From a virus: 64,000 nucleotides of DNA. Below the pieces are notes generated by a model, which saw only the letters and a list, made by a program, of their open reading frames with translations, did no database searches and had not been told where the DNA came from. Location of the stretch: positions 105,338-169,337 of IMG/VR virus record IMGVR_UViG_3300018876_000008; one strand, written 5' to 3'. The position numbers and the translations under genes were made by a program. Below, in pieces: positions 6,853 to 52,251 of the stretch. The first letter of the stretch is position 1. Each line of letters starts with the position of its first letter.

Positions 6853-7524
6853 TTACTTCTTACTACGAATCACCTCATCGATAATTCCATACTCTAAAGC
6901 CTCTTCCGATGATAACCACAAATCACGGGACGCATCCTGTTTTACTTTTTCGGGGTCTTTATCACAAAATTCACCAAGTAGGTTAAATAATGTGTCATTT
7001 AGTTTAGTCCATTCTTTCATTGTAATTTCAGCATCTTGAATGTTACCTACCGCACCTCCCGATGATTGATGTAACATTGTACGAGAAAATCTAAGTGATG
7101 AACGTTTACCTTTAGTTCCCGCTCCCAATAGAATTGAACCCATAGATGCCGCCATACCTGTATTTACTGTAACAATATCAGATTTAATGTAGTGCATAAC
7201 ATCGACCATTGAAAGTCCTGATTTAACCGAACCACCAGGTGAATCAATATGCATCGTTATATCCATATTATCGACAGAATCTAAATACATAAGTTGTGCT
7301 TGTACCACTGTTGACATTGCGTCATTAACAGGTCCTGCAACCCATAAAAGACGGTCTCTCATTAATCTTGAGAAGATATCTAATTGTACTGCCCTCATCT
7401 CTCTTTCTTCTAAAATGTAAGGGGTCATAGAACCCTCAAGTTCTTTTTTAATGTGATGCATTGTTAATGAAGATAAATTATGTTCACTCATTGCATACTT
7501 TTGAAAATCTTTTCCGTAATCCAT
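6853..7524 (-). CDS. clpP: ATP-dependent Clp protease proteolytic subunit
   Basis: Serine protease of the ClpP fold, full length at 223 aa. The catalytic triad is visible: Ser128 in GMAASMG, His152 in MLHQSSGG and Asp201 in ASRDLWLSS. The oxyanion-side SPGGS motif is at residues 95-99. A 30-residue N-terminal extension precedes the usual start of the fold. It should form a barrel fed by an AAA+ partner; the ClpC at 50230, with a VGF docking loop, is the obvious candidate. A TACCTTTG promoter lies 39 nt upstream and a terminator follows. Confidence 0.93.
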   Translation of the reverse strand: MDYGKDFQKYAMSEHNLSSLTMHHIKKELEGSMTPYILEEREMRAVQLDIFSRLMRDRLLWVAGPVNDAMSTVVQAQLMYLDSVDNMDITMHIDSPGGSVKSGLSMVDVMHYIKSDIVTVNTGMAASMGSILLGAGTKGKRSSLRFSRTMLHQSSGGAVGNIQDAEITMKEWTKLNDTLFNLLGEFCDKDPEKVKQDASRDLWLSSEEALEYGIIDEVIRSKK

Positions 7525-15437: not shown

Positions 15438-15513
15438 GAGCTTCCTGAGGGACTCGAACCCACGACCTGCTGATTACAAATCAGCTGCTCTAGCCAACTG
15501 AGCTAAGGAAGCT
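15438..15513 (-). tRNA. tRNA-Thr(TGT)
   Basis: Seven-bp acceptor AGCTTCC/GGAAGCT, D and T arms normal, anticodon loop TTTGTAA with TGT. CCA not encoded. Last gene of the minus-strand tRNA run. Confidence 0.95.
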
Positions 15514-15515
15514 TT

Positions 15516-15731
15516 TTATACTAATTTCCATTTTTTGGCAGATTTGACTATCGCCTCTTCATTTGTTAAATTTGGTTCCTCTCTAATTATATCCATTGCA
15601 GTATACATTATTTGACCCTTTAATCCTTTTTTACTTGCTAAGTCTAAAACGTCAACATAATAATTAGGGTCAAATTTTGGTAGTGTACCGTCTTCTTCCA
15701 TGTCTGCAATTTTACTAAGTATATTACCCAT
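15516..15731 (-). CDS. Unknown protein, 71 aa
   Basis: Start set at 15731 (MGNILSKIADMEEDG) because a TATATTTG promoter lies 22 nt upstream; the longer frame to 15773 would begin inside that promoter. Helical and acidic, ending KSAKKWKLV. Its stop is 2 nt from tRNA-Thr, so protein gene and tRNA probably share a transcript. No family recognised. Confidence 0.65.
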   Translation of the reverse strand: MGNILSKIADMEEDGTLPKFDPNYYVDVLDLASKKGLKGQIMYTAMDIIREEPNLTNEEAIVKSAKKWKLV

Positions 15732-15753
15732 AAATGTTTTTTTTATTAGAGTA

Positions 15754-15761
15754 CAAATATA
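15754..15761 (-). promoter_or_regulatory. Host-type -7 element TATATTTG
   Basis: 22 nt upstream of the 15731 start; probably also drives tRNA-Thr. Confidence 0.6.
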
Positions 15762-15862
15762 TGATAAATGCATGAAAAAACCAACATTAAGTATAAAAAA
15801 GTTACCTAATGATGGTTTTTTACTGCATAATTAAAAAAGTGAATTCTTTAACGGTTTATTGA

Positions 15863-16198
15863 TTATCCGTTAATGACGGAATTATTGTTTTCATCTAATT
15901 GTCTATAAATTTCTGATACGTGTTCGCTCATAATATTTATAGTTTTATCAACTCTACTGTCAATATGACTATAAAGTCTCTCATTCTCTTCTTTACAATT
16001 ACGGTCAATGTTATTCCCAAAATCATAAAGTTCAGAACTTCTTTTCTCCAAATCCATATGGGTATATTCCAATTCTTTTTGGAGTAGGTTTATTTCCTCT
16101 TTCAAGGACTTTGTTGTCAAATAATTCACAAACGTACCCACAACCATTAATAATACAATGACTGCACATACACCTAAAATAAATGATGTTATTTCCAT
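15863..16198 (-). CDS. Membrane-anchored coiled-coil protein, 111 aa
   Basis: An N-terminal membrane helix (residues 4-26, FILGVCAVIVLLMVVGTFV) followed by about 70 residues of charged coiled coil (KSLKEEINLLQKELEYTHMDLEKR is within it). Such topology is seen in phage spanin-like or membrane-tether proteins, but no lipoprotein partner is adjacent, so I do not name it. Lies between tRNA-Tyr and the 15731 gene. Confidence 0.65.
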   Translation of the reverse strand: MEITSFILGVCAVIVLLMVVGTFVNYLTTKSLKEEINLLQKELEYTHMDLEKRSSELYDFGNNIDRNCKEENERLYSHIDSRVDKTINIMSEHVSEIYRQLDENNNSVING

Positions 16199-16245
16199 AA
16201 TTTCTAATTTTTAATTTAAATTTTATGTCAAAGAACTCACCTCGT

Positions 16246-16326
16246 TGGAGAGGAGGGACTCGAACCCCCAAGGTCGAAAGACGGCAGATTTACAGTCTGC
16301 TGAGCCAACCAATTGCTCAACTCTCC
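16246..16326 (-). tRNA. tRNA-Tyr(GTA)
   Basis: Anticodon loop CTGTAAA within stem GCAGA/TCTGC; has the long variable arm typical of bacterial tRNA-Tyr. T arm GGGGGTTCGAGTCCCTC. Acceptor has one mismatch at position 7. Confidence 0.93.
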
Positions 16327-16332
16327 ATTTAA

Positions 16333-16455
16333 TTATTTAAATTTTGATTTAATGAACAGGTAGAGACTTTCGAAGATATGATACAACAATAATCCAACCA
16401 TCCACGATACTAAACCAAATACTAATGATGCAATAATAAATCTAAATATTTCCAT
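16333..16455 (-). CDS. Single-span membrane mini-protein, 40 aa
   Basis: Start at 16455 (MEIFRFIIASLVF). The longer frame to 16566 runs through tRNA-Ser and is an artefact. Nearly the whole protein is one hydrophobic segment with a basic end (FIKSKFK). Its place between tRNAs suggests co-transcription; function unknown. Confidence 0.5.
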   Translation of the reverse strand: MEIFRFIIASLVFGLVSWMVGLLLYHIFESLYLFIKSKFK

Positions 16456-16487
16456 GATTTTATTTTTTTTATAGTTTAAGAGTTTAG

Positions 16488-16572
16488 CGGAAGATGTAGG
16501 ATTCGAACCTACGGTACATTGCTGTACGCTGGTTTTCAAGACCAGTGCATTCGACCACTCTGCCAATCTTCC
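16488..16572 (-). tRNA. tRNA-Ser(TGA)
   Basis: Anticodon loop CTTGAAA in stem CTGGT/ACCAG, long class II variable arm, T arm GTAGGTTCGAATCCTAC, acceptor GGAAGAT pairing with its 3' partner. Confidence 0.95.
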
Positions 16573-16577
16573 GTCTG

Positions 16578-16651
16578 TGGACCTTGTAGGGCTCGAACCT
16601 ACGACCTACGCATTATGAGTGCGGTGCTCTAACCAACTGAGCTAAAAGTCC
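16578..16651 (-). tRNA. tRNA-Met(CAT) or tRNA-Ile(CAT)
   Basis: Anticodon loop CTCATAA. D arm AGCTCAGTTGGTTAGAGC and T arm GTAGGTTCGAGCCCTAC are normal. Whether it is elongator Met or lysidine-modified Ile2 cannot be told from these features alone. Confidence 0.93.
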
Positions 16652-16674
16652 GTTATTCAAAAATATCTACTCCA

Positions 16675-16746
16675 CTTAGACTCCGTCTTTCGACTTGTAG
16701 GCGTGAGATTTGACGCCTCGTTGTTCGGTTGTTAAACCTATCTAAG
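16675..16746 (-). ncRNA. 72-nt cloverleaf-like element without T-loop
   Basis: On the minus strand CTTAGA (5') pairs with TCTAAG (3') and encloses three hairpins: GGTT-taac-AACC, AGGCGT-caaatctc-ACGCCT and GTC-gaaa-GAC. Size and layout mimic a tRNA, but the TTCGA T-loop is absent and the middle loop has 8 nt. It sits between tRNA-Met and the aberrant tRNA. Either a decayed tRNA or a distinct structured RNA. Confidence 0.4.
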
Positions 16747-16749
16747 AGC

Positions 16750-16866
16750 GGGGGAGTAGGGGATTCGAACCCCCACCTCTTCTCAACAAGCCTAATCGTA
16801 TCTCGTAACTAGTATGATATTTTCGGCCTTATAGTTGGAGCGTCGTACCACTTTGACTAACTCCCC
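16750..16866 (-). tRNA. Aberrant tRNA with enlarged anticodon domain
   Basis: Acceptor GGGGAGT/ACTCCCC pairs perfectly, the D stem GTC/GAC and T arm with loop TTCGAAT are intact, but positions 27-31 (CTCCA) cannot pair with a nearby 3' strand. Instead an ~80-nt segment folds as a long imperfect hairpin (CTCCAAC with GTTGAG; AAG-G-CC with GGCTT; TATC with GATA). No reliable anticodon; total ~117 nt. Could be a tRNA with an insertion or a tRNA-like RNA. Confidence 0.55.
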
Positions 16867-16874
16867 GTATTTAG

Positions 16875-16948
16875 TACACCCATCAGGATTCGAACCTGAG
16901 ACCGTCTGCTTAGAAGGCAGATGCTCTATCCAGCTGAGCTATGGGTGC
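16875..16948 (-). tRNA. tRNA-Arg(TCT)
   Basis: Anticodon loop CTTCTAA in stem TCTGC/GCAGA, normal D and T arms (TCAGGTTCGAATCCTGA); first acceptor pair is G-T. Confidence 0.95.
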
Positions 16949-16958
16949 ATGTGAAAAA

Positions 16959-17015
16959 GATAGGGTTCTTTTTTAAAGTTACATAGTTCCAACGCGTATT
17001 GTGTAACTCCCTATC
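16959..17015 (-). other. Long hairpin between tRNA genes
   Basis: GATAGGG pairs with CCCTATC and, stacked inside, AGTTACA with TGTAACT, with an 11-nt A-rich bulge; on the minus strand the 3' arm is followed by TTTTTC. Looks like a processing or attenuator/terminator element between tRNA-Leu and tRNA-Arg. Confidence 0.5.
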
Positions 17016-17020
17016 TATAG

Positions 17021-17106
17021 TACCCGGAGACGGGCTCGAACCGTCACGGACCGTTCGGTCCAACAGATTTTAAGTCTGTCGTGTCTACCAATTCCACCAT
17101 CCGGGC
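17021..17106 (-). tRNA. tRNA-Leu(TAA)
   Basis: Anticodon loop CTTAAAA in stem CAGA/TCTG, class II variable arm GGACCGAACGGTCC, T arm GACGGTTCGAGCCCGTC. Confidence 0.95.
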
Positions 17107-17212
17107 ATGTGGTACTAATTTATAATTTCAAATAACGTTTTTGTCTTTCAACAATGTAAATGTACGATACAAAAGATTAAGTAACAACTATTTTTTTAAA
17201 ATAATTTAATTG

Positions 17213-17286
17213 TAGGGATGGAGGGACTTGAACCCCCGACCTTGACTATATAAGAGTCCTGCTCTAACCAACTGAGCTACATCCCC
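17213..17286 (-). tRNA. tRNA-Ile(TAT)
   Basis: Anticodon loop CTTATAT in stem GACT/AGTC; normal D arm and T arm. Reads the rare ATA codon, which is common in this AT-rich genome. Confidence 0.9.
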
Positions 17287-17296
17287 ATGTTGAAAA

Positions 17297-17319
17297 CACC
17301 TATATTTTATGTAGAGGTG
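17297..17319 (-). terminator. Hairpin with T run between tRNAs
   Basis: CACCT/AGGTG hairpin followed on the minus strand by TTTT, between tRNA-Lys and tRNA-Ile; attenuator or processing signal. Confidence 0.4.
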
Positions 17320-17339
17320 CAAAACTCGATTTGTATTGG

Positions 17340-17415
17340 TGGTGACCCCTCAGGGGTTCGAACCCTGGACCCTCACATTAAAAGTGTGATGCTCTACCAG
17401 CTGAGCTAAGAGGTC
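17340..17415 (-). tRNA. tRNA-Lys(TTT)
   Basis: Anticodon loop CTTTTAA in stem TCACA/TGTGA; acceptor GACCTCT with partner AGGGGTC. CCA appears encoded (17340-17342), unlike the other tRNAs here. First tRNA after the promoter at 17668. Confidence 0.95.
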
Positions 17416-30881: not shown

Positions 30882-30911
30882 AAAAAACCCATGTTATCAT
30901 GGGTTTTTTTA
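30882..30911. terminator. Bidirectional terminator
   Basis: AAAAACCCATG-ttat-CATGGGTTTTT hairpin between the convergent genes ending at 30863 and 30909. Confidence 0.75.
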
Positions 30912-32585
30912 TATATTCTTATATAGAATACCTTCCTCAACCAACCTTCGATTTTTTGGAAAATAATCCCAATCTAAAGTTACCATTTTTTCACCGTCAA
31001 ATAGGTAACCCTCATTAATCATTTTCTTTAGTTCATTTTCAGTTGTATGTGATAGTTCTTGATGTGCGAAATTTCTTAATTTATGTAAATTAAATTCCAC
31101 ATTACCAAACCAAGATAAATGCCAACCATTAATGTCATTTAAATGTGTTGACTGTTCATATCTTTGATTTCTAATTTCTTGAGGTGTTGTTGTTTTTAAA
31201 TATGACCATCTACTACAGGCGGGACCTGGCCATCTTAAATTCTTAAAGTCCCAATTAAAATTCCAATACATCCATCTCTGTAGTATTGTTCTAAAGGTTT
31301 TAAATTCTATGTGATTATTCTTTAGTCTATGTAAGATATCATCATCCCATATTTCATCGACATCTGATATGAGTACTATATCATTATCGTGAGGGTTAAT
31401 TTTTTCTAAGACAGTTTTAATACTATTTCTATGATAGTTTTCTCTAAACCAATTTATCCTGTCATCTTCATTTTTTGGTTCAGGATTGGGCTCGTACAGT
31501 ACTTCATTTGGTAAATCAACAACAACATGTTCTATTTTATGTAAAAATTTATCAAATAAATGTCTATTTTTTTGAAATATTAGTTCTTTATCTTTTCCTG
31601 TATGTGTATTTCTTGACTCAATTAATACAAAACGGTCAACATGATGATTCATTTCATGTAGTCTTAAATTTAACATATCTAATTCATGGTCAAATAAAAA
31701 ACAGTCGTATATCATTGATGATTTATTTCTAATTCCTAAACCTGATATTCTATCCCATACTTTAGGTTTATCATAACCTTCATAATCTGCTATTTTTAAT
31801 TTACCTGTAACTCCATTCTTATCTAATCCATTTGATGCGTACCCATCATTTATTAAACTAATTATATTGTCATTACTCTTCCAAAAATCAGTTGCAATTT
31901 CACTATGTGCGAAAGAATAAACTTTATCACGAATAAAATCAAAATCACCAAACCAAGAAAAGTGGTATCCTCCATTGTCTTTTATATAAAATTCAGTTGA
32001 TTTCTCATCCCACCTTTTATCTCTAATAGTTTGAAAAATCCTATTATCATTTATGTAATGAGAATAGTAAAAAGCGGAGCTACCCATCCAATGATGCATT
32101 TTTTCTAACGAACTATTCCATACCAACCATTTTTGTTTAAAAATAACAGGAGAAAATGGTAAGTTACGATTCAGTTCATCAATGTTATCTAAGTTAGGAA
32201 ATTCGTCAACATCTGATACTATAATAATATCGTCAAAATTTAAATCTAATGTTTTTAAAGCTTTACCGATAGATAATCTTTGGTGGTTTTCTCTAACCCA
32301 ATTCATTGTCCTTAAATCGGGTACCTTAACTAATTTAGTTATCTCTTCTTGAGATAAATTATTTGGCATATCATCAACAACACATATGTGTATTTTATCA
32401 AACCATTTTTTAAATCTATCAATATTATTACTAAAAAACAGTTCTTTTTTTACACCAGTAAATGTTTTAGTTGATTCCACAATCACAAACTTATCTACTT
32501 GTTCATAGTACTCTTCAAGTCTAAGTTCTAACAAATCTAACTCATTAAAAAAAAGTACAGTATCTATTATTTTTTGTTTAATCAT
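30909..32585 (-). CDS. Tandem double GT17 glycosyltransferase, 558 aa
   Basis: Two full copies of a GT17-like (beta-1,4-GlcNAc transferase type) domain in one chain. Copy 1 (~1-280): FFNELDLLELRL, FVIVESTKTFTG, WVRENHQR, IIVSDVDEFP. Copy 2 (~285-555): LFDHELDMLNLRL, FVLIESRNTHTG, WFRENYHR, VLISDVDEIW. Each has a DVD metal/nucleotide-sugar motif. No membrane helix. It probably modifies a surface glycan or phage protein; acceptor unknown. Overlaps its upstream small gene by 8 nt. Confidence 0.85.
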   Translation of the reverse strand: MIKQKIIDTVLFFNELDLLELRLEEYYEQVDKFVIVESTKTFTGVKKELFFSNNIDRFKKWFDKIHICVVDDMPNNLSQEEITKLVKVPDLRTMNWVRENHQRLSIGKALKTLDLNFDDIIIVSDVDEFPNLDNIDELNRNLPFSPVIFKQKWLVWNSSLEKMHHWMGSSAFYYSHYINDNRIFQTIRDKRWDEKSTEFYIKDNGGYHFSWFGDFDFIRDKVYSFAHSEIATDFWKSNDNIISLINDGYASNGLDKNGVTGKLKIADYEGYDKPKVWDRISGLGIRNKSSMIYDCFLFDHELDMLNLRLHEMNHHVDRFVLIESRNTHTGKDKELIFQKNRHLFDKFLHKIEHVVVDLPNEVLYEPNPEPKNEDDRINWFRENYHRNSIKTVLEKINPHDNDIVLISDVDEIWDDDILHRLKNNHIEFKTFRTILQRWMYWNFNWDFKNLRWPGPACSRWSYLKTTTPQEIRNQRYEQSTHLNDINGWHLSWFGNVEFNLHKLRNFAHQELSHTTENELKKMINEGYLFDGEKMVTLDWDYFPKNRRLVEEGILYKNI

Positions 32586-43230: not shown

Positions 43231-43980
43231 ATGAAATTTGACCAAGTTTATGTTATTTCACTAGACCATAGTGAAGAATATATAAAAGATTTATATAATA
43301 GGTTAAGTAAAATTCCTTTACCTTACAATACTCCTGTTTTTATTATTGATGCGTTTTTAGGTACTCGTTTAAAAAATGAAACCGATTTAGGTTATGAGTT
43401 ATATAATAATTGGAATATTTCAGATTTAAACCCTAATTGGCATTGGTGGGAAAGACCTACAACTTATGGTGAAGCAGGTGGGATGATATCTCATACTATG
43501 TGTTGGGAAGATGCGTATTTAAACGGATATGAAAATATTATGATACTTGAAGATGATTTTGACACAGACGGTACTTTAGATTGGAATATTTTTGAAGAGT
43601 TAGACGGTTATGATTGGGATTTATGTTTAATGTCACATAACCCATTACACGGAAACTTTTCAAATATACACGGTTCATATGAAATTGGTAAAGAACATTT
43701 TTTAAGACCTTCTTATTTTTACAATACACATACTTACATTTTACAAAAAGATGGAATTAGGAAGTTGGTTGAGGACCATTTAGATACTCTAAAAAAGAAT
43801 ATAATAGTGTCTGACGAGTTTTTATCTGCCGTTACGACTACTCACCCCCGAAAAGATTTAAGAGAGCTCTACACATCTAATTTGAACGCTATAGCAACTA
43901 AAGAGGATTATACTTATCAGACTCGTTACATGAGTGCGGGGAATTCCTTAACTGAACCTACTGAAGATGATTTAAAATAA
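43231..43980 (+). CDS. GT25-like glycosyltransferase, 249 aa
   Basis: Pattern of glycosyltransferase family 25: start VYVISLDHSEEYIKDLYNRL, central TYGEAGGMISHTMCWEDAYL and the acidic motif IMILEDDFD. Such enzymes move a sugar onto LPS, capsule or protein. No membrane helix. Probably modifies phage or host surface glycans. Upstream element TATTTTATAA is a weak form of the late-type motif. Confidence 0.78.
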   Translation: MKFDQVYVISLDHSEEYIKDLYNRLSKIPLPYNTPVFIIDAFLGTRLKNETDLGYELYNNWNISDLNPNWHWWERPTTYGEAGGMISHTMCWEDAYLNGYENIMILEDDFDTDGTLDWNIFEELDGYDWDLCLMSHNPLHGNFSNIHGSYEIGKEHFLRPSYFYNTHTYILQKDGIRKLVEDHLDTLKKNIIVSDEFLSAVTTTHPRKDLRELYTSNLNAIATKEDYTYQTRYMSAGNSLTEPTEDDLK

Positions 43981-44808: not shown

Positions 44809-44837
44809 AGCCAATTTTTTAGATATCAAAAAAAAAT

Positions 44838-44862
44838 GCCAATTAAAATTAATTTAATTGGC
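44838..44862 (-). terminator. Terminator of tmRNA
   Basis: Perfect GCCAATTAAA / TTTAATTGGC-type hairpin followed on the minus strand by A and nine Ts. Confidence 0.8.
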
Positions 44863-44868
44863 ACTTAT

Positions 44869-45252
44869 TGGTGGAGGTGGCGGGATTCGAACCCGCGTCT
44901 TGCTCGTATTACCCTATAAAGGACTACACGTTTAGGACAATATTGATTCTCAATATTCCGAAATATGTGATTGAATTTTTACATCCTCCATCACCAATAG
45001 ATGTACGACTCGATTTAAGGTTCGGTCGTTTTTCCACCTTTGTAAGACTTCTGTTCCTAGGTTATATGTCCCGACCCGTTGTGGTGTAACGTCTTACGCT
45101 ACAGCCACTTCTTCAGTACGAACAAGTCCGATAGCCTGAAGTTTTGCGATAGTTTCGCCAGATAAAAATTGCGTCCATAGATTTAAGTGATAGGATACAT
45201 CTCACTACGTGCCCCGTATAACTAATTCCGCCAATCAATTCCATTCACCCCC
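44869..45252 (-). ncRNA. ssrA: tmRNA with encoded CCA
   Basis: The 5' end GGGGGTG pairs with the 3' acceptor strand; the 3' part has the T arm GCGGGTTCGAATCCCGC and ends CCACCA. Length 384 nt is normal for a one-piece tmRNA. It rescues stalled ribosomes and tags the nascent chain. The tag frame lies at 45159-45094. Own host-type promoter and strong terminator. Phage tmRNAs are known but uncommon. Confidence 0.93.
45094..45159 (-). other. tmRNA tag-peptide frame, 21 codons
   Basis: Read from GGC at 45159 to TAA at 45094. The tag starts GETIAKLQ, as Bacteroidota tags start GET, and ends TEEVAVA instead of the common ALAA. The other two frames end in KKWL and CSY. At 21 residues it is longer than most tags. 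Resume codon inferred, not proven. Confidence 0.65.
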
Positions 45253-45281
45253 ATATTTTCAAAGAACTTACTTTATAGGTA

Positions 45282-45289
45282 CAAATATA
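45282..45289 (-). promoter_or_regulatory. Host-type -7 element TATATTTG
   Basis: 29 nt upstream of the mature tmRNA 5' end. Confidence 0.65.
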
Positions 45290-45313
45290 AATACTTTTTT
45301 TCTTATAAGAAAC

Positions 45314-47165: not shown

Positions 47166-49070
47166 ATGAAATTTAGTACAATATTAAACGAAGGTAAAAA
47201 GGAAAATCTTATTTCTAAGTATGGTGATGAGCCAATATTCAAAGATAATGATTTTATTTCAACTATAGTTGATAGTGACCCATCTAGTACTAAGAAGTAT
47301 TCTGAATGGACCATTAAACAAGTAATTGATTTCATGAAAGTTAATGATGGGGCATCACTTCCAGATGTCGTTATCCAAATTACCGATTTAATTAAGAATT
47401 TTCACGACTTATCACTAACGATTACTGATGAGGATATTGATTTTGCCAAAAAATTACACTCAAGTATTAATGACACATATATAAAGGGAGCGCCTAAAGA
47501 TATACACAGATATAAATCATATTGGGAACTACAAACAGTCTTATCTGCACTTGAAAAAAAGAAAAAAGATAGAGAACAAGAAAAAGAAGCTTTAAAAGAT
47601 GTGGATAAACTTTATGAGGACAGTAGATTTTTAGTGGTGAGACCTTATAGTCATGATGCTTCGTGTTATTACGGTTCAAATACTAAATGGTGTACCGCAT
47701 CTAAAAATAATCGAGGATATTTTAATCGTTATGTAGATTCGGGAATATTAATTTATGTAATTGATAAAAAGTCCAATGATGAAACTTTAGGTAAAATGGC
47801 CATCAATATTAATGAAAATGGTAATATTTGGATTTACGACCAAAAAGATAATCAAAGGAGTGAAGACTTTTTACTTGATAGATTTGAACCTATTTCTGAG
47901 GTGATTAAAAAAATACTCAAAGGTGACACCGATTATGAGAAATTAATTAGAATAAAAGAAGGTAAAATAAGGGCTTCACAACAAAAACTTACTGCCCCGT
48001 ATTTTGAAGATATGAATGAAAATGATATTTTTTTACGTTTTGATGATGTGAGAGAATATCTTTCATTAATGAATGAGGCTTTAGAAGATTATGAAATAGA
48101 TGCTTATGCGAACGGTATTGAGTTACCTTATGGTATGGACAATTATTACTACGATTCATACAATTTTGATGAGGATTTGAAAGAAGGATACCCTCTTTAT
48201 AAATTAAATTCAGACCAGTTAAAAATTCTTAAAGATATATTAACTATTATTTCCCCTGACAAACTAAAAGGATTATTTAAAACTACCCCTAATGTATCTA
48301 GAGAGAAATTAAATAAATTTAAATCTATGGATAAGGGGTCACAAGATTATTTTGATTTATACAACTTATCAATTGTTGACAATAATAATTTACTCCCTGA
48401 TATTGGTAAGTTTTTATTAGGATTTGACGATAAATTTATAGAAGATTTTGGATATGCCTATGGGACTGCCGAAGATGAGTCAATGAAAAAAGGTGTTCAA
48501 GACGTATTAGAGGATGAATTGTGTAACTTCTATGAACCAATAGGGTTTGAATTAGTAGGTTCCGATTGTTTTTATAAGTATTCAGTATCAGTAGATAAGG
48601 TTATCAGTATGTATGAATCAAATATAGAATACTCAAAAAATTTATCTTTAAAAGAATTATTTGAATGGTTTGCCGAAGAAAACTTAGCATGGAGTCTTGA
48701 TGAACCTCATAATATGGCCTATGAGAATGCAGACGAAGAAACGTTTAATTACTATTTTAATTCAGATATGGAAAGTGCTTTGGAATCGTTACTTGAAAAA
48801 ATAGAAAGTGACGAAACATATGAAGATATTGAAGAATATAATAAAATAGTAAAATTAATTAGTAATAAGTACGGGTTTGATAAAAAAGTTGATATTCCAA
48901 CTACAGACGGTACTCAAATTACAATACAAAAAGTAAATCCACTAAATAATAAAGTTGAGTTTATGTTAAATAAAAAAGGTGATTGGAGAGGTAAAAAGGG
49001 TATAGCTAAACTATCCACAATCGAAAAAATGTTTACAAACTACCAACTATTTGACCCGTTCGAAGATTAA
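47166..49070 (+). CDS. Tagged large protein with TKWCTAS domain, 634 aa
   Basis: The N-terminal tag is short: MKFSTILNEGKK, predicted cleavage after E9. Residues ~155-235 form a compact domain with SCYYGSNTKWCTASKNN, FNRYVDSGILIYVID and GKMAININENGNIWIYD, a pattern I have seen in phage proteins of unknown function; Cys, Trp and Thr could be catalytic. The rest is acidic and helical. If packaged, it would be an effector delivered early (inference). Late-type motif upstream. Confidence 0.72.
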   Translation: MKFSTILNEGKKENLISKYGDEPIFKDNDFISTIVDSDPSSTKKYSEWTIKQVIDFMKVNDGASLPDVVIQITDLIKNFHDLSLTITDEDIDFAKKLHSSINDTYIKGAPKDIHRYKSYWELQTVLSALEKKKKDREQEKEALKDVDKLYEDSRFLVVRPYSHDASCYYGSNTKWCTASKNNRGYFNRYVDSGILIYVIDKKSNDETLGKMAININENGNIWIYDQKDNQRSEDFLLDRFEPISEVIKKILKGDTDYEKLIRIKEGKIRASQQKLTAPYFEDMNENDIFLRFDDVREYLSLMNEALEDYEIDAYANGIELPYGMDNYYYDSYNFDEDLKEGYPLYKLNSDQLKILKDILTIISPDKLKGLFKTTPNVSREKLNKFKSMDKGSQDYFDLYNLSIVDNNNLLPDIGKFLLGFDDKFIEDFGYAYGTAEDESMKKGVQDVLEDELCNFYEPIGFELVGSDCFYKYSVSVDKVISMYESNIEYSKNLSLKELFEWFAEENLAWSLDEPHNMAYENADEETFNYYFNSDMESALESLLEKIESDETYEDIEEYNKIVKLISNKYGFDKKVDIPTTDGTQITIQKVNPLNNKVEFMLNKKGDWRGKKGIAKLSTIEKMFTNYQLFDPFED

Positions 49071-50167
49071 TAAAAATAATCGTTTGATTCAGTCATACCT
49101 GAAAGTAATTTCTCTCTCAGTATTTCATACAACTCCCCAATCTCACTTTCATCCATGTAAACTACATCACCTGTAAATTTAGATTCAATGGAGATACCTT
49201 CTTTAGTATCAGTAACAATTACATTTTCCAATTCGTAACTTTCCTCATCGTAATCAATATCATCTACATCAGATTCCCAACCATCTAAAGTGTCATCAGT
49301 AACATCGAATAATGTACCATAATTGTTCCAATTAGGTTTTACATAATCATATACGTACTTTTGATTACCTAACTCATCTACCAATTTAATAGAAAACTCA
49401 ATAGCCTTAGATACGTCATCCACAACTACAAATTCATTAGCGGTATGCATGTTATAATATCCACATGAAAAATTAATACAACTAAAATCACCCTTACGTT
49501 TAATTTGAGAAACGTCAGTGTAAGGATGAGACTGAGGGTCGGCATTTACACCCATAATTTCATTAAATAGTGGAAGTGTTTTATTAATGAACTCACCACC
49601 TTTTTCATATAGTCTTGTCCCTGAACAAACTTCAGTAATTAAATTATTGCCAGGAGCATCGAATTGTACTGCATAACCCACATCGTTCAAGAAGTTGATG
49701 TCACATTTACTTGAACCATGACACCCTGTTTCTTCAGATACAAATAACCCTACTTTTACTTTAGAAAGGGTCCTGAGAAGTTCAAGTGCAATAAAGACAC
49801 CACACTTATCATCACCACCAATACCAGTTGGAATACCATCAGGTGTATAACCTTTAAGGGATAGAAATTCTTCATCTCCATAGGTATGACCAAAAGTATT
49901 TGGTTTAACAAGTGATTCTTCTTGAACGATTATTTTATCGACCAGTTGATGTACTGTGTCGGTATGGGCAATAAACATTGGATAATACTCTCCTTCGTCT
50001 AATGTACCTTTAGTGGCGTAAACATTATCCATTTCATCCGTATAATACTCAACATCGGGCATTGCCTCCAATACGTCGCGTAGGTATTGTACCATATTAT
50101 CTTCTTGATATGTTTTGGTTGGTACCGACAGTACTTCTTTTAGTCTATTGAGTTGTGTATTATCCAT
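49067..50167 (-). CDS. M20-family zinc peptidase-like protein, 366 aa
   Basis: Metal-binding blocks of the M20/peptidase T group: HTDTV (68-72), GGDDK (117-121), EETGCHGSS (145-153), DAPG and MHTANEFV. About residue 290 on, an acidic extension (DDTLDGWESDVDDIDYDEESYE) not usual in the family. Predicted cytosolic aminopeptidase or amide hydrolase. It shares a 4-nt convergent overlap with the 47166 gene. Host-type promoter 19 nt upstream; downstream of clpC but separately promoted. Confidence 0.85.
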   Translation of the reverse strand: MDNTQLNRLKEVLSVPTKTYQEDNMVQYLRDVLEAMPDVEYYTDEMDNVYATKGTLDEGEYYPMFIAHTDTVHQLVDKIIVQEESLVKPNTFGHTYGDEEFLSLKGYTPDGIPTGIGGDDKCGVFIALELLRTLSKVKVGLFVSEETGCHGSSKCDINFLNDVGYAVQFDAPGNNLITEVCSGTRLYEKGGEFINKTLPLFNEIMGVNADPQSHPYTDVSQIKRKGDFSCINFSCGYYNMHTANEFVVVDDVSKAIEFSIKLVDELGNQKYVYDYVKPNWNNYGTLFDVTDDTLDGWESDVDDIDYDEESYELENVIVTDTKEGISIESKFTGDVVYMDESEIGELYEILREKLLSGMTESNDYFY

Positions 50168-50215: not shown

Positions 50216-50243
50216 AAAAAAAGGGAAAATTAATTTCCCTTTT
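50216..50243 (-). terminator. Terminator of clpC
   Basis: AAAAAGGGAAA / TTTCCCTTTTT hairpin overlapping the clpC stop codon. Confidence 0.7.
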
Positions 50244-52251
50244 TAATGATTAATTCTTCATCGTTTTTCATTTCTACAGTAAAAGGTTTGTTTACTACAA
50301 TAGTACCTCTAAGAACTTCTTCAGAAATTAAATCTTCAATTTTTTCCTGTATTGCTCTTTTAATAGGTCTCGCCCCGTACTTTTCATCAAATCCAACTTT
50401 AGAAATAAATTCTTTAACTGAATCACTAAAATTAATATTATATTCCATTTCTTCTAAACGATTAGTTAATTTAAGTAATTCAATATCCACAATCTCAGAA
50501 ACTTCTTTTTCTTTTAGAGGGTTAAATACAACAACCTCATCTACACGATTTAAGAATTCAGGGGTAAAATGATTCTTTAATTCTTTTTGAAGTAACGCCT
50601 TTTTCATCTCTTCATTATTTGACATTCTATTAGAAGTCTCAAAACCAACACCTGTACCAAAATCTTGAAGTTTCTTAACCCCTAAATTAGATGTCATAAT
50701 AATCAAACAGTTCTTAAAATTAATTTTACGACCAAAACTATCGGTTAAGTGTCCATCATCCATCATTTGAAGTAATAATGAAAAAATATCTTTGTTAGCC
50801 TTCTCAATTTCATCGAACAAAACAACAGAATAAGGTTTGTTCTTAACCGCTTCAGTTAATTGACCTCCTTGGTCGTGACCAACATATCCTGGAGGAGAAC
50901 CAATTAATCTTGACATAGTGTACTTCTCTTGATATTCTGACATATCTACTCTAATTAAAGCGTCTTCAGCCCCAAATATCTCTTTTGCCAATTGTTTAGC
51001 TAAATGGGTTTTACCGATACCTGTAGAACCTAAGAATATAAAAGAACCGATAGGTCGATTAGGGTCTTTAATCCCAACTCTATTTCTACGAATAGCTTTA
51101 GAGATTTTTTCTACTGCAACTTTTTGACCGATTACAGAGCTATTAAGATTACCTTCTAAATTAAGTAGGGATTCTTTATCGTCAGAATTAAGTCTTGTAA
51201 CAGGTATTTTAGTCATAGTTGAAACAACCTCAAATACCATATCTTCAGTAATTGGTTTACGTTTTTGGTCTTTAGATAACTCAAACTTTTCTTTTTCATT
51301 ATCTAATTTTTTTAAGATTTTCTTCTCTTTATCACGTAATTCTGCTGCCTTTTCGTACTGCTGAGATTTTACTACTTCAATTTTTTCTTCTTTAATTTTA
51401 ACCGCATCTTCCTTTAACTTTTCAATTATTTCAGGAAGTTTGACGTTGATTTGAGCGCGGGCACCAACCTCATCCATAATATCGATAGCCTTATCAGGAA
51501 ATTCACGGTCAGTAATATATCTATCAGCAAGTGTTACACATGCTTTAAGTGAATTTTCACTATAAGTTACTTTATGATGTGATTCATAACGAGACTTTAA
51601 ATTTTCAAGAATGATTAAGGTTTCTGATGGAGTGGCACCATCAACAACAACTTTTTGGAACCTACGTTCAAGTGCACCATCTTTTTCTATGTTTTCACGG
51701 TATTCGTCAAGTGTTGTAGCTCCAATACATTGTAGTTCACCTCTTGCTAGTGCGGGTTTAAAAATATTAGAAGCGTCTAATGAACCTGAAGAATTACCTG
51801 CACCTATAATTGTGTGTATCTCATCAATAAAGACGATAATATCAGGATTCTCATAAAGTTCATCTAAAATAACTTTTAATCTTTCCTCAAATTGACCTCT
51901 ATATTTTGTACCTGCAACGATTGATGTCATATCCAAAGAGACGATACGTTTATCACATAAATTTTGGGGACAATCACCTTCGAAGATTTTCATTGCCAAT
52001 CCCTCTACAATTGCAGTTTTACCTGCACCTGGCTCACCTATAATAATTGGGTTATTCTTCTTTCTACGAGAAAGAATTTGAGCGATTCTATTAATTTCAT
52101 TTTCACGACCAACAACAGGGTCAAGTTTACCTTGTTCCGCATGTCTAATAAGGTCACGAGAAAAATTGTCTAAAACAGGTGTTTTAGAGTTACTCATTTC
52201 TTTAGGAGCTCTTCCTCCATCTTTTTCATTAGGGTCTAATGGTTCTATCAT
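50230..52251 (-). CDS. clpC: ClpC-type AAA+ unfoldase lacking the N-domain, 673 aa
   Basis: Two AAA+ modules: Walker A GEPGAGKT (72-79) and Walker B IIVFIDE (138-144); Walker A GSTGIGKT (408-415) and Walker B VVLFDE (476-481). Between them a ClpC-type middle domain with a UVR motif (QQYEKAAELRDKEKK, ~298-311). The VGF loop in FGTGVGFETS (~535-537) is the ClpC dock for ClpP, so it should feed the phage ClpP at 6853. The usual ~150-residue Clp N-domain is replaced by a ~25-residue acidic start. Two host-type promoters upstream. Confidence 0.93.
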   Translation of the reverse strand: MIEPLDPNEKDGGRAPKEMSNSKTPVLDNFSRDLIRHAEQGKLDPVVGRENEINRIAQILSRRKKNNPIIIGEPGAGKTAIVEGLAMKIFEGDCPQNLCDKRIVSLDMTSIVAGTKYRGQFEERLKVILDELYENPDIIVFIDEIHTIIGAGNSSGSLDASNIFKPALARGELQCIGATTLDEYRENIEKDGALERRFQKVVVDGATPSETLIILENLKSRYESHHKVTYSENSLKACVTLADRYITDREFPDKAIDIMDEVGARAQINVKLPEIIEKLKEDAVKIKEEKIEVVKSQQYEKAAELRDKEKKILKKLDNEKEKFELSKDQKRKPITEDMVFEVVSTMTKIPVTRLNSDDKESLLNLEGNLNSSVIGQKVAVEKISKAIRRNRVGIKDPNRPIGSFIFLGSTGIGKTHLAKQLAKEIFGAEDALIRVDMSEYQEKYTMSRLIGSPPGYVGHDQGGQLTEAVKNKPYSVVLFDEIEKANKDIFSLLLQMMDDGHLTDSFGRKINFKNCLIIMTSNLGVKKLQDFGTGVGFETSNRMSNNEEMKKALLQKELKNHFTPEFLNRVDEVVVFNPLKEKEVSEIVDIELLKLTNRLEEMEYNINFSDSVKEFISKVGFDEKYGARPIKRAIQEKIEDLISEEVLRGTIVVNKPFTVEMKNDEELIIKKGN

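Follow-up and report, generated by a model that had tools for sequence, protein, structure and literature searches.

The tmRNA gene and its flanking signals

The window, the whole stretch of 64,000 nucleotides analysed here, was taken from a 169,337-base IMG/VR virus record. It contains one tmRNA gene, which is accompanied by several flanking signals.

44869–45252, minus strand: tmRNA gene, mature form with encoded CCA end
45257–45267, minus strand: GTTCTTTGAAA element
45282–45312, minus strand: putative Bacteroidota-like promoter, TTTC-N19-TATATTTG
44834–44866, minus strand: predicted intrinsic terminator

The tmRNA gene matched the Rfam model RF00023 over its entire length (model positions 1–374 of 374) with a score of 77.7 bits, the cut-off being 47. 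It is the single full-length tmRNA found in the window by Rfam; ARAGORN made no tmRNA call at 44869–45252. Syntenic relatives share 75–88% identity with it. The acceptor stem is GGGGGUG/CACCUCC in sequence, its third pair is a G·U (G3·U70), and it is followed by ACCA; by sequence, the window tmRNA thus possesses both an alanine-type acceptor stem and a CCA end. When the gene was compared with deposited phages by BLAST, only the tRNA-like 3′ end was matched, in unrelated phages; therefore, the window tmRNA has no deposited close relative.

The promoter consensus of Bacteroidota is TTTG-N19-TAnnTTTG. Of 73 distinct relatives, 55 have the promoter-like motif 5′ of the tmRNA, in most cases between −25 and −38; it reads TTTG-N19-TATATTTG in some relatives and TTTC in the window copy. 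The GTTCTTTGAAA element, which is kept in nearly all the relatives listed, lies just 5′ of the mature 5′ end. It resembles the boxA of rRNA leaders and may be one. On the other side, 3′ of the CCA end, the predicted terminator is composed of a 14-pair stem followed by a T run.

Part of the family contains one conserved leader RNA of ∼80 nt (GAAATCAC..GTGGCTCCC...GGGGGCGAAAGTGATTT) between the promoter and the tmRNA. It was seen at L061:13190–13265 and also in L027, L030, L058, L059, L062, L075, L078, L131 and L257. RNAalifold folded it with 24 pairs, four of them with double changes, and an Rfam search gave no significant match; it could be a riboswitch or an antitermination element. One relative, the tmRNA at L014:9531–9914 (on the same contig as L022 and L136), appears to be a recombinant: over the first 137 nt it shares 99% identity with L011, and from mid-tag onward it is window-like. 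Elsewhere, the window carries a cluster of eight tRNA genes (15438–17415, minus strand) and two glycosyltransferases of Pfam families 17 and 25 (30909–32585 and 43231–43980).

Reading frame of the tag

45094–45159, minus strand: tag frame GETIAKLQAIGLVRTEEVAVA plus stop, 21 codons (GGC at 45159, TAA at 45094–45096)
45160–45164, minus strand: U(−5)A(−4) frame signal, the five bases TATCT before GGC

The first-pass annotation of this DNA had described a tag that starts with GET, runs for 21 codons and ends in VAVA. Translation from 45159 to 45094 gives GETIAKLQAIGLVRTEEVAVA*, in full agreement with that description. Together with the alanine carried by the tmRNA, the full tag would consist of Ala plus 21 encoded residues, with VAVA at the C-terminal end. 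A resume codon in some other frame, which the annotation had raised against its own reading, was tested for in relatives and was not found.

The relatives were gathered through a neighbouring gene, the nearby ClpC gene, a pattern of the tmRNA 3′ end and a pattern of the tag. The set comprises 85 tags, with 50 distinct 21-codon DNAs that encode 35 distinct peptides; one further member, L163, has a tag of 22 codons. All 50 distinct DNAs keep 21 codons followed by a stop in the tag frame. Frame +2 is closed by an earlier stop in 50/50 of them and frame +1 in 45/50, at scattered positions. In plain pairwise counts, which use no tree and leave relatedness uncorrected, single-base codon differences are synonymous or non-synonymous in a ratio of 4929:2324 in the tag frame, compared to 2781:6797 and 593:8235 in the other two. 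The corresponding pN/pS value is 0.48 in the tag frame (0.39 in codons 7–18), and 0.80 and 1.91 in the others. Mean entropy is lowest at the second codon position (0.31) and highest at the third (1.08).

In Escherichia coli, the frame of the tmRNA is set by U85/A86 (PMC2481249). Following this rule and conservation, we assigned the U(−5)A(−4) signal of the window: base −4 before GGC is A in 85/85 related tmRNAs, and base −5 is a pyrimidine in 84/85. Taken together, the stops in the other frames, the synonymous bias confined to the tag frame and the A at −4 support the frame proposed earlier, and another reading frame was rejected on the 50/50 kept frame, the closed alternatives and the bias. 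ARAGORN begins some of the relatives' tags four codons later (AKLQ...), in the same frame. We regard it as very likely that the tag is translated.

Comparison of the phage tag with host and other phage tags

In nearly all bacteria, stalled proteins receive one short tag ending in LAA, which delivers them to ClpXP. The tags of the phage family follow the pattern G[E/N]TxAKLxxxGL[I/L/V]RTEEVx[V/A]A and end in V[AST]VA, VYAA or VVAA, never in LAA. Among 30 genomes of Bacteroidota, the likely hosts of the window phage, 29 have a tmRNA over the cut-off, and for 28 of these ARAGORN gave a tag of 9–10 residues, such as GENNYALAA, GESNYAMAA, GETRYAMAA and GNTQYAMAA; one ARAGORN tag call among the Bacteroidota genomes, L428, looks wrong. 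The phage tag shares the host-type start with these chromosomal tags, whereas its middle is longer and its end is different. A degenerate form of the phage-tag pattern had no match in 84,980 prokaryote species genomes and 97 matches in IMG/VR.

The earlier view of the tag as a Bacteroidota-type GET start joined to an altered end is borne out, and the tags of Bacteroidota are indeed short, with LAA or MAA at the end. Length by itself is less special than the earlier view held: long tags also occur in other phage tmRNAs. The other phage tmRNAs fetched for comparison mostly have tags of 10–15 residues ending in LAA or similar. Unrelated long tags of 19–33 residues were called by ARAGORN in L124, L125, L161, L168, L175, L205 and L112 (for example, GKNKVSELFAKVADMFQATPKQELALA), and Gordonia phages have the long tag EEANAPVVTEADFAEIEAFANSEAAALV in their annotation. 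The C-termini of 162 phage ORFs were also scanned for mimics of the tag, and none was found; by our estimate, only ∼2 would be expected by chance, so that their absence carries no weight.

ClpC-type unfoldase, metallopeptidase and ClpP

50230–52251, minus strand: ClpC-type AAA+ unfoldase, 673 aa (Pfam AAA_2, AAA_lid_9, ClpB_D2-small and UVR; VGF loop)
49067–50167, minus strand: M20/M42-type metallopeptidase adjoining ClpC (PF05343 at 1.7e-6; PHROG 4191 peptidase)
6853–7524, minus strand: phage ClpP peptidase, 223 aa, with a Ser-His-Asp triad (PF00574 at 1.5e-58)

The nearest solved relatives of the phage unfoldase are ClpC proteins. It contains two AAA+ modules with Walker motifs and a short middle domain with the UVR match; KYRG and GYVG pore loops were recognized in the alignment, and the [VI]GF loop for ClpP docking is present in 15/15 ClpC sequences aligned. 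No Pfam match to the Clp_N domain was obtained, and the protein starts only ∼20 residues before the first AAA+ module; the phage unfoldase is thus ClpC-like rather than a full ClpC. Among the matches listed, its closest bacterial relatives are ClpCs of Bacteroidota, with 56–60% identity. Like the phage proteins, Bacteroidota ClpC and ClpP have both AAA+ modules, a short middle domain, the [VI]GF loop and the ClpP triad; unlike Bacteroidota ClpC, the phage ClpC lacks the N-domain and is phage-borne.

The metallopeptidase adjoins ClpC in nearly all relatives with enough flanking sequence. In L071–L074, the gene order is ClpC, peptidase and tmRNA, within ∼1.2 kb after ClpC. As for the phage ClpP, its triad shows in an alignment with solved ClpP as the motifs ASMG, LHQ and RDLW. 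It scored 233.6 bits with the NCBIfam ClpP model, which is below the curated equivalog cut-offs, versus 71.3 bits with the model of the ClpP-related head protease; on these scores, a head-maturation protease was rejected for 6853–7524. ClpP was found in 9/16 and 2/12 records of two sets that have three records in common, and several long records lack it, so host ClpP would have to serve where the phage enzyme is absent. No SmpB was detected in any of 16 phage records. The record of L163 (L231) has two ClpP-like genes close together, one ordinary and one diverged.

Association between the tag and ClpC

Viewed from the ClpC side, the tmRNA is located 1.1–6.5 kb downstream on the same strand in 52/80 loci; the remaining 28 end within 4.6 kb of ClpC and therefore provide no clear counter-example. 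Viewed from the tag side, ClpC is present in 25/25 records found by the tag alone, in one of which (G048) it is cut by the contig end. In an earlier set of seven tag-bearing records, ClpC was present in six, the seventh being a 64-kb fragment. In another of the 25 records (G036:C1:51525–53506, the record of L268), a frame break disrupts the ClpC gene and the tag is still present.

As a control, we searched 24 phage records with other tmRNAs; none has a full-length ClpC, and one gave a partial match of 36%. These control phages probably infect other phyla. The genes flanking the tag–ClpC neighbourhood are also partly conserved, and the co-occurrence may reflect shared ancestry. The records of L124 and L175, which have unrelated long tags, encode a longer ClpC-like protein with 42–45% identity.

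Close relatives of ClpC and ClpP were also observed in LR745206.1 and LR756502.1 (L440 and L441), two huge uncultured phages of 635 and 642 kb, with identities of 57–58% for ClpC and 44–68% for ClpP. No tmRNA over the Rfam cut-off was found in either record, which indicates that ClpCP has work to do without the tag.

RNA folds and alternative explanations

45111–45141, minus strand: predicted mid-tag hairpin CUUCAG...CUGAAG, in the long middle of the tag
45081–45108, minus strand: predicted P5-like hairpin, with the last tag codons as the 5′ arm and the stop codon at the loop

In ordinary tmRNAs, including those of the hosts, the last tag codons lie in P5 with the same layout. Folded one by one, 46/46 segments from the phage family enclosed the stop codon in a hairpin, and each position showed several kinds of pair. 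The register of the helix varies from clade to clade, so RNAalifold yielded no consensus from a gap-free P5 alignment. Shuffled 3′ sides were beaten at p ≤ 0.05 in only 23/46 segments; the case for P5 therefore comes mainly from where it lies and from its changing pairs, not from energy. The mid-tag hairpin was more stable than shuffles at the same threshold in 29/45 tags. Both the stability of that hairpin and the use of P5 for the last codons in host tmRNAs would fit the idea that the long tag middle is kept for RNA folding and not for the peptide. We consider this improbable: variation is lowest at the second codon position and highest at the third, the synonymous excess is found in the tag frame only, and part of the family keeps the peptide pattern although it has no mid-tag hairpin. 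Even less credible is a functionless gene, left by decay or capture of a host tmRNA. ARAGORN did miss the window copy, but the tRNA-like ends, the frame and P5 persist in dozens of diverged copies, and the window copy has a promoter-like region and a terminator of its own. A decayed gene was rejected on the conserved ends, frame and P5.

If the tag is translated, its fate may still differ from destruction by a phage protease. It might be stabilizing or neutral: ribosomes would be freed, destruction of the chains would be avoided or slowed, and host ClpXP would spare partial phage proteins. The replacement of the ClpX-recognized LAA end in all members would agree with this. However, a neutral tag would not need a middle conserved as protein (pN/pS of 0.39 in codons 7–18), and the small hydrophobic end is conserved with a ClpP-compatible unfoldase alongside; we regard this fate as unlikely, if somewhat less so than a tag kept for its RNA. 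A stronger competitor, though still a minority view, is a genuine degradation tag that is handed to host ClpXP or host ClpCP. In this case, the hydrophobic-Ala end would suffice and the middle would bind a host adaptor, while phage ClpC would be a neighbour with another job, for example remodelling phage or host proteins. The tag ends do stay small and hydrophobic (VA or AA), those such as YAA or xVA could be readable by host ClpX, and in E. coli, degrons are in use whose last three residues are altered, for example to LVA (PMC9382460); the synteny is also partly general, and the huge phages have ClpCP without a tmRNA. Against this, the hosts keep short LAA/MAA tags, whereas conservation of the phage tag extends across 21 residues and its end departs from the host type in every member, and ClpC is in its constant company.

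Possible phage trans-translation module

The tmRNA tag together with an unfoldase that is always nearby, and here also ClpP, indicates that these viruses probably run their own tag-and-destroy system in the host. The first-pass annotation had mentioned reading by another protease as one outcome of the altered tag end. We favour this outcome, with ClpC, a candidate that the annotation had not named, beside the tag in every record tested and a phage ClpP in the window, and infer that phage ClpC is the reader. Escape from host ClpXP, the other outcome it had mentioned, may or may not occur. More specifically, the arguments for and against a phage trans-translation module with a private degron read by the phage's own ClpC(P) appear evenly balanced, and the same holds for phage ClpC as the main reader of the tag. 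With slightly more reserve, we suggest that Bacteroidota viruses have a private degron–protease pair, in which a viral ClpC, joined in some by a viral ClpP and a peptidase, reads a virus-only tag of 21 residues. Equally tentative is the proposal that such a pair sets the virus's clearance of stalled chains, and its salvage of amino acids, apart from host quality control.

As far as sequence can tell, the tmRNA gene is intact, the tag is conserved as protein, ClpC is constant and the loop for ClpP docking is intact. In the proposed module, the phage tmRNA would be expressed, charged with alanine by AlaRS and bound by host SmpB, and would enter stalled host ribosomes, which should be many during the destruction of host mRNA. 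Tagging would then add Ala and the 21-residue phage-specific degron to the unfinished chain, and the tagged chain would be taken mainly by the ClpC-type unfoldase of the phage.

The N-domain of ClpC is the place where adaptors bind. Its absence suggests that phage ClpC engages the tag directly, which would explain the long conserved middle; the unfoldase would grip both the middle and the hydrophobic end. The chain would be cut by phage ClpP, or by host ClpP in relatives without the phage enzyme, and the resulting peptides could be broken down to amino acids by the metallopeptidase that adjoins ClpC. The likely benefit is that ribosomes would be kept free during mRNA destruction and that unfinished chains would be turned into amino acids under phage control.

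Comparison with known systems

A known exception to the LAA tag and ClpXP is one tag rewired to Lon after the loss of ClpXP. PMC3985003 and PMC9382460 describe it in Mycoplasma and Mesoplasma, where Lon reads an extended tmRNA tag (Gur and Sauer 2008; Ge and Karzai 2009). By analogy, it is the closest precedent: like the phage tag, which has 21 codons and ends in VAVA, it is long, has given up the LAA ending and goes with an AAA+ protease other than the usual one. Unlike the phage case, the Mycoplasma tag is described there as chromosomal, in bacteria without ClpXP and with Lon as the reader; the phage tag is viral and unrelated to it in sequence, and the candidate for reading it is a viral ClpC next to a host system that is intact.

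Phage tmRNAs have been known from mycobacteriophages and Bacillus phage G (PMC4131195), from the OM43 phage Melnitz, for which amino-acid recycling was already suggested (PMC9004378), and from huge phages (PMC7162821). The window shares with them a tmRNA in a phage genome, but the pairing of a tag with a phage unfoldase is absent from these three papers. Both SPO1 and the window phage would steer ClpC proteolysis. SPO1 Gp53 is a phage adaptor of Bacillus ClpCP (PMC6873191) and redirects host ClpC as a protein adaptor, whereas the window phage brings an unfoldase and a tag. In the Chryseobacterium phage MA9V-3, a phage of Bacteroidota, parts of PMC13120357 give an annotated tmRNA and a Clp ATP-binding subunit ∼4 kb apart; the subunit is annotated as ClpX (840 bp), and those parts draw no link between it and the tmRNA. 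In the mostly open-access literature covered on phage tmRNA with ClpC or with a phage degron, the pairing was not reported earlier.

If the proposed reading is true, trans-translation would be duplicated and re-addressed inside the infected cell, and the very presence of tmRNA genes in phages would have an explanation open to testing. The pair would also be a natural candidate for an orthogonal degron with its cognate unfoldase, for use in protein-control tools in Bacteroidota.
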